Origin: Pseudomonadota bacterium
Lineage (GTDB): Bacteria > Pseudomonadota > Gammaproteobacteria > Burkholderiales > Burkholderiaceae_C
Assembly (NCBI GenBank): GCA_021815805.1
Contig: JAKAZQ010000034.1
Coordinates: forward strand, 1 to 32,939
Reading direction: 5' to 3'
Length of the DNA: 32,939 nt
In this document: positions 18,714 through 21,821 of the stretch, one piece after another
Layout: each line of letters starts with the position of its first letter
Position numbering within the stretch: position 1 is the stretch's first letter
Notes under the pieces: model-generated
The model's input: only the letters and a program-made list of their open reading frames with translations
The model's database searches: none
What the model was told of the DNA's origin: nothing
Position numbers and translations under genes: made by a program

Positions 18714-20255
18714 TCAGAGAAACATCCGCACCACCGGATTGCCGGTTTCCTCGACATGGGAGTATCCCAGCGAGTCGAGGAACGCGCCGAAGCGCCGCCG
18801 ATCCGCGGGCGGAACCTGGATGCCGACCAGCACCCGCCCGTTGTCGCCGCCCTGGTTGCGGTAATGGAACAGGCTGATGTTCCATTCGGGTTTCAGGTTG
18901 TCGAGAAAACGCATCAGCGCGCCCGGGCGCTCGGGGAAATCGAAGCGCAGGATGCGCTCGTGCAGCGGCGCCGCATCGTCGCAGCGCGGCGCGCGCCCGC
19001 CCACCAGATGGCGCACGTGCTGCTTGGCGAGTTCGTCGTCGCTGAGATCCAGCGTGGCATAACCGGCGCGCACGAGATGCGCGGCGATGCGCCGCGCGTC
19101 GTCGCGACTGCTGATGGACAGGCCGACGAACACCTGGGCCTGCGTCGGGTCGCCCAGGCGGTAGTTGAATTCGGTCACCGCGCGCGGCCCGAGCAGTGCG
19201 CACAACTTGCGGAAGCTGCCCGGCTGTTCGGGGATGGTCACGGCGAACAGCGCCTCGCGCGCCTCGCCGACCTCGGCCCGCTCGGCGACGAAGCGCAGCC
19301 GGTCGAAGTTCATGTTCGCGCCGCAGGTGATGGCCGCCAGCGCCTGCGACTTGAGCTTGTGCTGCGCCACGTACTGCTTGAGCGCCGCCACCGCCATCGC
19401 ACCCGACGGCTCGAGCACGCTGCGCGTGTCCTCGAACACGTCCTTGATCGCGGCGCACACCGCGTCGGTGTCGACCACCACGTAGTCGTCCACCAGTTCG
19501 CGCGCCAGGCGGAAGGTCTCCTCGCCCACGCGCTTGACCGCGGTGCCGTCGGCGAACAGGCCGACCTCCGCGAGTTCCACGCGGCGCCCGGCGCGCACGC
19601 TGCGCAGCATGGCATCGGAGTCCACCGTCTGCACGCCGATCACGCGCACCTCGGGGCGCACCGCCTTGATGTAGGCGGCCACGCCCGAGATCAGGCCGCC
19701 GCCGCCGATGGCGCAGAACACGGCGTGCAGCGGCCCCGGGTGCTGGCGCAGGATCTCCATGCCGATGGTGCCCTGCCCGGCGATCACGTCGGGGTCGTCG
19801 AACGGGTGCACGAAGCTCAGGCCGCGCTGCTCCTGCAGTTGCGCGGCGTGCGCGGCGGCGTCGCTGTAGCTTTCGCCTTCCAGCACGATGTCCACCGCGC
19901 CGGCGCCGAACGCGCGCACGGCATCGATCTTCACCTTCGGCGTGGTCGACGGCATGACGATCACGGCCTTGCAGCCGAGCTTGCGCGCCGACAGCGCCAC
20001 GCCCTGGGCATGGTTGCCGGCGGAGGCGCAGATCACGCCGCGGTCGCGTTCCTCGGCGCTGAGGCGCGACATCTTGTTGTAGGCGCCGCGCAGCTTGAAA
20101 CTGAACACGGGTTGCTGATCCTCGCGCTTGAGCAGCACGCTGTTGTGCAGGCGGCGGCTGAGGTTGTGCGCCAGGTCCAGCGGGGTCTCGTGCGCGACGT
20201 CGTACACGCTCGCGGTGAGAATGCGCTGCAGGTAGTCGATGGTCTTGCGGGTCAC
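18714..20255 (-). CDS. ilvA: Threonine ammonia-lyase, biosynthetic (IlvA)
   Basis: IlvA is a PLP enzyme that deaminates threonine to 2-oxobutanoate, the first step of isoleucine synthesis. It has 513 residues. The PLP lysine lies in VFSFKLRGAYNKM (about residue 54). Other catalytic-domain landmarks are SAGNHAQGVA and the phosphate-binding loop AIGGGGLISG. The C-terminal half holds two ACT-like regulatory domains (FAVTIPEQPGSFRKLC and RFDFPERPGALMRFLD), the long form inhibited by isoleucine. The start is a GTG with a weak ribosome binding site. A -10-like TAGAAT is at 20283-20288, without a good -35. Confidence 0.97.
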   Translation of the reverse strand: MTRKTIDYLQRILTASVYDVAHETPLDLAHNLSRRLHNSVLLKREDQQPVFSFKLRGAYNKMSRLSAEERDRGVICASAGNHAQGVALSARKLGCKAVIVMPSTTPKVKIDAVRAFGAGAVDIVLEGESYSDAAAHAAQLQEQRGLSFVHPFDDPDVIAGQGTIGMEILRQHPGPLHAVFCAIGGGGLISGVAAYIKAVRPEVRVIGVQTVDSDAMLRSVRAGRRVELAEVGLFADGTAVKRVGEETFRLARELVDDYVVVDTDAVCAAIKDVFEDTRSVLEPSGAMAVAALKQYVAQHKLKSQALAAITCGANMNFDRLRFVAERAEVGEAREALFAVTIPEQPGSFRKLCALLGPRAVTEFNYRLGDPTQAQVFVGLSISSRDDARRIAAHLVRAGYATLDLSDDELAKQHVRHLVGGRAPRCDDAAPLHERILRFDFPERPGALMRFLDNLKPEWNISLFHYRNQGGDNGRVLVGIQVPPADRRRFGAFLDSLGYSHVEETGNPVVRMFL

Positions 20256-20339
20256 GAGCGATGCCGGTTCGACAAAAAGGCCATTCTATCGACGGGGCGG
20301 CGCGCGCCCGGCGCCACGGAACCTGTCGTCGCGACGCGC

Positions 20340-20369
20340 AAAAAAAACCCAGGCCGAAGGCCTGGGTTT
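20340..20369 (-). terminator. Intrinsic terminator of the candidate small RNA
   Basis: The minus strand reads AAACCCAGGCC, loop TTC, GGCCTGGGTTT: a perfect 11-bp stem (20369-20359 with 20355-20345). Eight Ts run from 20347 to 20340, the first three being part of the stem. On the plus strand only three Ts follow, so it works in the minus direction. The nearest upstream minus-strand gene is coq7, more than 760 bp away with the plus-strand OsmC gene between, so the terminator most likely belongs to a short local transcript. Confidence 0.92.
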
Positions 20370-20437
20370 GAATCCACCTATGGAGGAGGGTGGAGGAGAC
20401 AAGAGGTGTCGATTGCCGCGAAAGCTTCAATCAACGT
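20340..20437 (-). ncRNA. Candidate small RNA with two anti-Shine-Dalgarno CUCCUCC motifs
   Basis: A free-standing unit of about 98 nt lies between ilvA and the OsmC gene, with its own promoter and intrinsic terminator. The predicted RNA folds by hand into three hairpins. Hairpin 1 is an 8-bp stem (20435-20428 with 20415-20408, one G-U) and a 12-nt loop. Hairpin 2 is a 5-bp stem, CCACC (20393-20389) with GGUGG (20378-20374), and its loop is CUCCUCCAUA. The third is the terminator. A second UCUCCUCC lies in the linker just before hairpin 2 and runs into its stem. No protein-coding frame is plausible. C-rich CCUCC-loop sRNAs that pair with ribosome binding sites are known in other proteobacteria (sX13 in Xanthomonas, CcsR-type RNAs in Rhodobacter). 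Membership of such a group is inference. Confidence 0.7.
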
Positions 20438-20443
20438 GATGGA

Positions 20444-20472
20444 ATATTAGTACAAACCCGAGTGATCCGCAA
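20444..20472 (-). promoter_or_regulatory. Sigma70 promoter of the candidate small RNA
   Basis: On the minus strand TTGCGG (20472-20467) is followed by exactly 17 bp and TAATAT (20449-20444). The predicted start is an A at about 20437. The AT-rich -10 region stands out from the GC-rich surroundings. Confidence 0.75.
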
Positions 20473-20673
20473 AGACCCTTGTCTACCCATGGTTTCAATG
20501 AAGCCATGAGCATGCACGCATGCAGGGGTGGCCGAAACCTTGCGCGCGGCTGCGCGGCGCTACGTCCTGCGCCGTTTGTCGCACAATGCCGCAGGCGTAT
20601 CGGCGGTCGCGGGCGTCGGGGCCGTGCGATGTGCCGGCCGCGCCGGTCGATCGCGGCACATGAGGTGAACGGG

Positions 20674-21120
20674 ATGGAATGCACAGTGCAATGGATGCAG
20701 CCCGCCGGAGGCGAAGGCATGGCCTTCGTCGCTACCACCGGCAGCGGGCACATGATCATGATGGATGGCGCGCCGGCGGCGCGTGCGGGCGAGCCGGGCG
20801 GCCACAACCTGGCGCCGCGCCCGATGGAGACGGTGCTGGCCGGCGCCGGCGCCTGCACGGCCTACGACGTGGTGTACATCCTCAAGCGCGCGCGCCTGGA
20901 CGTGCGCGACTGCAGCGTGCGCCTGCAGGCCGAGCGTGCCGACACAGACCCCAAGGTCTTCACCTCCATCCACATGCATTTCGTGGTGCAGGGGCGCGGC
21001 CTCGACCCGCAGCGGGTCGAGCGTGCCGTCGCGCTGTCCCACGAAAAGTACTGCTCGGCCAGCGCCATGCTGGCGCGCACCGCCAGCATCACCACCAGCG
21101 TCGAGATCGTCGAGGTCTGA
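20674..21120 (+). CDS. OsmC family protein
   Basis: The 148-residue protein belongs to the OsmC/Ohr superfamily, cytosolic thiol proteins whose characterised members reduce organic hydroperoxides. Two cysteines occupy family positions: Cys61 in GAGACTAYDVV at the start of the central helix and Cys127 in SHEKYCSASAML. The N-terminus (MECTVQWMQPAGGEGMAFVA) is closer to the YhfA-type branch than to Ohr, so peroxidase activity is not certain. The start is fixed by GAGGTGA six bases upstream of ATG 20674; longer upstream frames lack a site. It converges with coq7, with 17 bp between the stops. Confidence 0.9.
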   Translation: MECTVQWMQPAGGEGMAFVATTGSGHMIMMDGAPAARAGEPGGHNLAPRPMETVLAGAGACTAYDVVYILKRARLDVRDCSVRLQAERADTDPKVFTSIHMHFVVQGRGLDPQRVERAVALSHEKYCSASAMLARTASITTSVEIVEV

Positions 21121-21137: not shown

Positions 21138-21821
21138 TCAGATCCAGTGCGCGGTGCCGGTCATGAGCTTGGCCGCGGCGCGCATGCCCCAGCGCACCGG
21201 CGCCGGCAGCGCGATGGCGCCGAGTTTCTCGGCCGCCAGCGCGTGCTCCACCTCGTCGGCCTTCATCTGCTCGACCACCGCGCGTGACGCCACGTCGGCC
21301 TGGGGCAGGCGCTGCAGATGCGACGCCAGGTGCTGCTCGACCTGATTCTCGGTCTCGACCACGAAGCCCAGGCTGACCTTTTCGCCGAAAGCCCCGGCCA
21401 GCGCGCCCAGCGCCAGCGCGCCGGCGTACCACAGCGGGTCGAGCAGGCTGGGGCGCGCATCGAGCTGCTGCAGGCGTTCGCTGCACCACGCCAGGTGGTC
21501 GCACTCGTCGCGCGCAGCCTGCCTGAAATGGGCGTGCAGCGCCGGGTCGCGCGCCACCAGCGCCTGGCCCTGGTAGAGCGCCTGCGCGCAGATCTCGCCG
21601 ACGTGGTTGACCCGCATCAGGCGCCCCGACAGCTCGCGTTGCTGTGGGTCGAGCGGCGTGTCCGGCGCCTGCTGCGCGGCTGCGGGCCGCGGCAGCGGGC
21701 GCGCCGGGTGCAGCCCGCCGACGAGGGTCTTGAGGGCGTTGTCGGCCACGGTCAGCAGCCGGTCCTGCAGCGAATCGACGCGCGCGGCGGGGCCCTGGCG
21801 CGTGGTGGGGCGAGCGGTCAT
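21138..21821 (-). CDS. coq7: Demethoxyubiquinone hydroxylase Coq7
   Basis: Coq7 is a membrane-associated di-iron hydroxylase of ubiquinone synthesis. The 227 residues contain the expected ligands: Glu76 in VNHVGEICAQ, Glu106 and His109 in RDECDHLAW, Glu156 or Glu158 in VETENQVEQHL, and Glu190 and His193 in KADEVEHALAAEKLGA. A hydrophobic hairpin at about 132-155 probably anchors it to the membrane. The first ~60 residues are a poorly conserved Pro/Ala-rich lead-in, as in other Burkholderiales Coq7. ATG 21821 gives the usual length; no strong ribosome binding site precedes it. Confidence 0.95.
   Translation of the reverse strand: MTARPTTRQGPAARVDSLQDRLLTVADNALKTLVGGLHPARPLPRPAAAQQAPDTPLDPQQRELSGRLMRVNHVGEICAQALYQGQALVARDPALHAHFRQAARDECDHLAWCSERLQQLDARPSLLDPLWYAGALALGALAGAFGEKVSLGFVVETENQVEQHLASHLQRLPQADVASRAVVEQMKADEVEHALAAEKLGAIALPAPVRWGMRAAAKLMTGTAHWI

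Follow-up and report, generated by a model that had tools for sequence, protein, structure and literature searches.

The closest described relatives of the small RNA (sRNA) reported here belong to the Rfam family RF02278 ("Betaproteobacteria toxic small RNA"), of which NcS27 of Burkholderia cenocepacia is a studied member (PMC5688073). NcS27 is processed, its overexpression slows growth and antisense of its CU-rich 5' end speeds growth (PMC5688073), and a review describes it as balancing metabolic shutdown on nutrient loss (PMC10987360). It adjoins the divergent BCAL3349 (PMC4603805), and four RF02278 members are listed for Herbaspirillum seropedicae (PMC7011215). S17 of Bordetella pertussis, which lies next to coq7 (PMC11722255), appears from its sequence and this neighbourhood to be a further member. 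RNase E cleavage of its long form, S17L, yields the Hfq-bound S17S, which directly represses BP2158 (lacZ fusion); 70 of the 92 genes that are upregulated without S17S carry complementary sequences at or near the ribosome binding site (RBS), and in Escherichia coli BL21 S17S showed none of the toxicity that gave the family its name, apart from a modest late effect (PMC11722255). How the accumulation of sRNAs, RF02278 members included, is regulated in B. cenocepacia is described as yet unknown in PMC5688073.

We analysed a 32,939-nt stretch of DNA from a Burkholderiales genome (contig JAKAZQ010000034.1; hereafter, the window), in which the original prediction had placed an sRNA unit with CUCCUCC anti-Shine-Dalgarno motifs on the minus strand between ilvA and an OsmC gene. 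Sequence, predicted fold and family match together confirm this observation as a whole, and the gap measures 418 bp (20256–20673), as had been stated. It is bounded by ilvA (threonine dehydratase; 18714–20255), downstream of the sRNA on the same strand, and by a divergent OsmC-like gene (20674–21120, plus strand), both gene names being taken over from the original prediction. A coq7 homologue of 227 codons follows (21138–21821, minus strand), recognized by its frame and place and named from its sequence. Our main reading, to which we assign a probability of roughly 0.86, is that the unit is a member of RF02278 that has its own promoter, is trimmed by RNase E and acts with Hfq to repress mRNAs at their Shine-Dalgarno regions, and that a PhaR-type operator found at this promoter in most other lineages examined is absent in the window's clade.

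On the minus strand, the predicted -35 element TTGCGG (20472–20467) is separated by 17 bp from TAATAT (20449–20444), and transcription would start at an A near 20437 and end with a T-run at 20340, giving a predicted full-length RNA of about 98 nt (20340–20437, from sequence and fold). The proposed promoter was upheld in its letters and spacing, but it falls below the consensus threshold of our scan, which returned no promoter-like sites, and TTGCGG matches TTGACA in three of six letters. The predicted fold of 20339–20437 (99 nt) agrees with the three hairpins that had been drawn by hand, at −40.2 kcal/mol versus −22.0 kcal/mol for shuffled sequences (z −5.94; none of 200 shuffles was as stable). 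These comprise a 5' hairpin, P1 (GUUGAUUG...CAAUCGAC; 20408–20435, from the fold and paired changes in the genus), a middle hairpin, P2 (UCCACC-loop-GGUGGA; 20373–20394, from the fold and the genus alignment), and an intrinsic terminator stem-loop (20345–20369) whose 11 pairs, predicted correctly, enclose a loop of 3 and precede the T-run. The terminator scan found one such element versus 0.5 expected in shuffles (sd 0.7). Regarding the two CUCCUCC stretches, the one assigned to the middle loop is there (20388–20382), whereas the one assigned to the linker (20398–20392) lies there only with its 5' part, its last UCC forming the base of the middle stem. The heptamer CTCCTCC by itself is not rare (6 in the window versus 3.63 expected; 20 of 100 shuffles reach as many). 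It is the fold and the RF02278 match that raise the unit above chance.

The view that no betaproteobacterial counterpart could be named proved wrong, as cmscan matched positions 20339–20401 (minus strand) to RF02278, a family with experimentally studied members, at 67.3 bits (gathering cut-off 50, E 1.1e-11) over model positions 1–64 of 64. The window unit is a new member of this already known family and, by prediction, has its double hairpin, CU-rich unpaired stretches and intrinsic terminator. At E ≤ 1e-3, the window's genome (71 contigs, 94% complete) contains one copy. The search for relatives covered 100 genomes (its own included), of which 80 have a match at this threshold and 63 one above the cut-off; none was found in 14 control genomes. 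A pattern scan of named genomes yielded at least 120 stretches, and among the matches listed a hairpin and T-run came next in 74 of 78 with the exact 18-base form and in 3 of 44 with other spacings. By their titles, the hairpin-bearing records included named Burkholderiales and Rhodocyclales, besides MAGs placed only at higher rank.

The stems are kept in relatives, both within the genus and in diverse members of the family. In the genus alignment (22 members, 20 distinct), the whole structure showed 20 cells changed on both sides versus 8.3 in shuffles, of which 0/500 reached 20; the number of pairs with both-side changes (6) was matched by 38/500 shuffles, and that of further pair types by 103/500. 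For P1, five of eight pairs changed on both sides somewhere and 85% of cells were paired, figures biased towards this stem because it was derived from the window fold and then inspected visually against the alignment, where rows L006–L009 are poorly aligned. All six P2 pairs are invariant in the genus, and across 42 diverse members 99.2% of P2 cells are paired, with one both-side change. Since 50/500 shuffles reach that number, the middle stem is conserved rather than supported by covariation. The expectation that both CUCCUCC motifs would be conserved held for the first, present in all 70 covariance-model copies (the 30 best plus 40 weaker ones), each of which starts with GUCUCCUCC; it did not hold for the second, which is complete in 32 of the 70 (24/30 best, 8/40 weaker), with CCUCC at the same place in 58. 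The first motif is, therefore, a near-invariant part of RF02278 and the second a variable one, and a mechanism requiring two sites is no family constant. The invariance of TCTCCTCCA in the alignments arises by construction, as the patterns used both to select the loci and to analyse their promoters and neighbours required it; the covariance-model copies are free of this effect. The sequence at the presumed RNase E site (start of UGUCUCC) is kept in the genus alignment.

The neighbourhood of the unit bears on whether it acts in cis or in trans. The coq7 side is the place of S17 in B. pertussis, so the window copy is of the S17 type by position; the neighbours that define this type, coq7 and/or a divergent osmC, are both present. 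In all 29 whole-genome loci with enough flank (the window included), a divergent osmC lies upstream of the sRNA and ilvA downstream. As ilvA begins about 85 nt past the terminator on the same strand, the sRNA could be read as a prematurely ended ilvA leader that attenuates the gene in cis. However, ilvA is close downstream in only 2 of the 66 named loci listed from other lineages, with osmC or coq7 still upstream in 50 of 61, and the homologues act in trans (PMC5688073, PMC11722255). An attenuator is thus improbable and, as other lineages lack ilvA downstream, we reject it as the main role; an extra cis effect on ilvA may occur within this family. Nor does the terminator merely serve a longer transcript in the sense of an ilvA leader, a possibility that had been raised against the unit, because nearly all other-lineage loci listed have the unit but no ilvA after it. 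Two further readings concern the product itself. With three TTG and one GTG in the window RNA, and a putative 32-codon frame in S17L of Bordetella (PMC11722255), a short peptide might be made, but the 98-nt RNA has no ATG, for which we reject this reading, and changes fall at P1 pairing positions; we regard a peptide as very improbable indeed. A stable scaffold displaying two copies of a short motif might instead be chiefly a sponge that takes up a protein or another, GGAGGAG-bearing RNA. This is hardly probable given that S17S represses a reporter fusion directly and that RBS complementarity is so frequent among its affected genes (PMC11722255), and the second motif is often incomplete in relatives.

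The preferred reading, that of a trans-acting RNA directed at Shine-Dalgarno regions, agrees with the anti-Shine-Dalgarno role originally proposed and with work on the homologues (PMC5688073, PMC11722255). From its own predicted promoter, the unit at 20472–20340 would yield the ~98-nt RNA, which RNase E would probably trim to ~62 nt, starting near 20401 with UGUCUCC on the model of the S17S 5' end (PMC11722255). With Hfq, the CUCCUCC stretches would then pair with the Shine-Dalgarno regions of many mRNAs and repress them. Transcription, processing, Hfq use and repression are predicted for the window's genome by analogy with the homologues. What the analysis itself shows is that the unit belongs to the family, that its predicted three-hairpin fold is stable, that the unit and the synteny of its locus are conserved, and that hfq and phaR genes are present. 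The suggested search for targets with GGAGGAG-type leaders returned GGAGGAG-N2-10-ATG 32 times in the genome versus 7 times for the reversed pattern, an excess that any strong Shine-Dalgarno signal would produce and from which targeting does not follow. Of 30 matches fetched, 28 were examined (two overlapping duplicates being left out), several of which sit in short or questionable frames; a further two had no locus. Nine candidates, chosen by eye and named by Pfam, are an amino-acid permease, a TonB-receptor plug, a xanthine/uracil-type permease, a response regulator, a periplasmic binding protein, a NiFe hydrogenase small subunit, a FadL-type porin, a short-chain dehydrogenase and a threonine synthase. 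The threonine synthase frame has its GGAGGAG leader at G000:C58:91516-91533 (L179), and the sRNA itself lies upstream of the threonine-using ilvA, which is possibly a coincidence.

In promoters of relatives, reading of the sequences showed the TTGC over the -35 element extended to TTGCRNYGCA. This resembles the sites of PhaR, a PHB-sensing regulator. The centre of the Ralstonia eutropha PhaR consensus, YTKNTGCRNYGCANMAR, equals TGCRNYGCA (PMC12849132), the Herbaspirillum PhbF site TG[N]TGC[N]3GCAA, footprinted at one promoter, agrees with it (PMC3206438), and so do Sinorhizobium meliloti sites, including one at the sRNA MmgR, whose promoter PhaR binds (PMC12542648). An initial motif, TGCTGCNNNGCAGCA, matched at 10 of 12 letters in no more than 29/105 loci and gave way to TGCRNYGCA (the S. 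meliloti form), which we sought within 220 bp upstream, dropping loci with less than 220 bp and identical upstream rows. The core occurred in 72 of 100 loci listed versus 4.21 expected from shuffles when the window's clade was not split off, and in 71 of 86 outside that clade (3.32 expected), mostly over the -35 element; 49 of these 71 had the -35/-10 layout (0.07 expected). In named loci alone, the count was 56 of 71 listed. Downstream control stretches contained the core in 14/100 cases (9/86 outside the clade), which is above the shuffle prediction. Because TGCRNYGCA was chosen once the named loci had been inspected with the initial motif, and before the R. eutropha consensus was compared, the held-out set is limited to 39 copies from the search for relatives (paralogues included; one of 40 dropped as too short). 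Of these, 27 carried the core, versus 2.03 expected, and 15 showed the layout, versus 0.025 expected. Among the 86 non-clade loci, 15 had no core, including all three Burkholderia loci tested (L047, L074 and L150), and it was absent from two of three Cupriavidus loci (L060 and L078; L035 has it). Given these Burkholderia loci, PhaR may not control NcS27 itself.

Of 51 genomes, 49 have PhaR (PF07879), and the window's is among them. Upstream of the best-scoring phasin gene, two cores lie 56–60 bp apart in 9 of 10 genomes, again including the window's. In the tenth, we could not locate where the best phasin (L258) starts, and the second (L259) had one core; lower-scoring phasins of the nine genomes had none (0/8). 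Within 300 bp upstream of phaR, the core was found at only 3 of 33 genes (L219, L230 and L277; 33 of 37 phaR loci gave a start), so the PhaR autoregulation described elsewhere finds no support from TGCRNYGCA here. A 13-mer, TTGCRNCGCAGCA, searched across eight genomes was too loose, with no phasin beside the eight matches inspected. We consider PhaR a likely controller of most RF02278 promoters outside the window's clade, as judged from these sites. In those lineages, PHB granules would draw PhaR off its operator, which usually covers the -35 element, and thereby release the sRNA.

Additional and diverged copies of the RNA show varied promoters. One genome (G066, contig C1) has nine RF02278 matches at several places; of six checked, one has a box in promoter layout and two have a core further upstream. 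Second copies of 30–33 bits in some congeners of the window (L279, L280, L281 and L283, from G020, G006, G021 and G003) begin close after TTGTCG...TAGAGT-like promoters, with no box in 160 bp upstream; a LysR-like frame, identified by eye, lies near L280. Upstream of the extra copies L330 (G040:C3) and L331 (G034:C1) are TGGCACG-N5/6-TGC-like stretches that resemble sigma-54 promoters, as compared with the sigma-54 consensus, and no PhaR-type box. Two diverged RF02278-like RNAs of 33–34 bits, below the cut-off (L284, G037:C7:55980-56053; L286, G045:C1:447443-447519), begin about 95 nt past the stop of a phasin gene (a PF09361 match at L284, alike by sequence at L286), and the interval holds a TATAAT- or TACAAT-like element. 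They represent a second possible link between RF02278 and PHB granules.

In the window's clade, which was delimited after the promoters had been seen, the operator is missing. No PhaR-type core lies within 220 bp of the window's sRNA promoter; where many relatives have the TTGC of TTGCRNYGCA, the window reads TTGCGGATCA. The 17-mer consensus matched the window seven times with up to two mismatches, always away from the sRNA promoter (5.94 expected by chance). Of the 14 clade loci, one has a core, off position at -155, and L006 and L008 have TGC-N3-GCA with CAT in the middle, perhaps an operator relic. The ilvA genes are consistent with the clade, with 88–95% identity to the window's versus 78–84% for the six box-bearing congeners measured. 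The clade instead has an element of its own, GGGTTTGTNCTAANAT, which is present in 13 of 14 loci, with a single-base difference in L007, and absent from all eight other congeners; in the window it corresponds to GGGTTTGTACTAATAT (20444–20459, minus strand), spanning spacer and -10 element. Allowing up to one mismatch, it matched once per genome in 5/5 clade genomes, with none for the reversed-pattern control. The loss of the PhaR box is not general in the window's genome because the promoter of its main phasin (L256; G000:C42, phasin 77610-77903) retains a pair of complete PhaR-type palindromes, TTGTTGCGACGCAACAA and TTGTGCATTGCACAA.

From the promoter sequences, we predict that PhaR controls the sRNA in many relatives and that this control has been lost at the window copy, where the sRNA would answer to another signal. 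We see even odds for a broader scenario, in which RF02278 at coq7/osmC would be the ancestral RNA arm of a betaproteobacterial PHB-sensing PhaR regulon, with an operator over the -35 element, release of the RNA by granules, and shut-down of transport and catabolism genes via Shine-Dalgarno sites; the window's clade would have severed this connection and substituted a promoter element that is conserved and unique to it. The sRNA itself is of a known kind; what is new, as far as the searched literature shows, is the PhaR-type control. The words PhaR, PHB and phasin are absent from the accessible text of PMC5688073, PMC11722255 and PMC4603805, all of which name RF02278, and in that of PMC7011215, which also names it, the sole mention of PHB is in a cited title. 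Our literature search found no paper treating NcS27 and PhaR together; it did not extend to Kimelman 2012 (PMC3317161) or Sass 2019 (doi 10.1099/mic.0.000848). If PhaR operators do occur at most RF02278 promoters, carbon storage would be coupled, throughout the class, to a wide-ranging brake on translation; the window's clade, which lacks the operator, is a natural case for comparison.

Among known systems, sX13 of Xanthomonas and the CcsR-type RNAs of Rhodobacter presumably share CCUCC-bearing loops with the window RNA; the Rfam scan of the sRNA stretch gave RF02278 only. For the box-bearing relatives, MmgR of the alphaproteobacterium S. meliloti is an analogue, with an sRNA promoter that is bound and repressed by PhaR at a similar palindrome (PMC12542648). 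The window copy differs from MmgR in having no operator, and the likeness is one of analogy, with no common descent implied. A 20-base stretch of the window, TGTCTCCTCCACCCTCCTCC, is identical in Bordetella loci L071 and L091, and S17 shares with the window copy the coq7 neighbour and its own promoter with a TTGC -35 element, the layout of which (TTGCAT-17-TACTAT; PMC11722255) is that of the box-bearing L071 and L091. S17L is longer (190 nt versus the ~98 nt predicted for the window RNA) and, as a further difference, S17 is enhanced by BvgA (PMC11722255). Unlike the window copy, the two Bordetella loci tested, of genomosp. 2 and 12, keep a PhaR-type box. With the double-hairpin RF02278 RNAs of B. 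cenocepacia (NcS27, ncS03, ncS05 and ncS62), the window copy shares sequence and structure over 64/64 model positions, CU-rich stretches and a terminator, and with NcS27 also a longer, processable 5' part (PMC5688073). It differs in copy number, with one in the window's genome (E ≤ 1e-3) versus four in B. cenocepacia (PMC5688073), and is set apart from its RF02278 relatives by the clade-specific promoter element.
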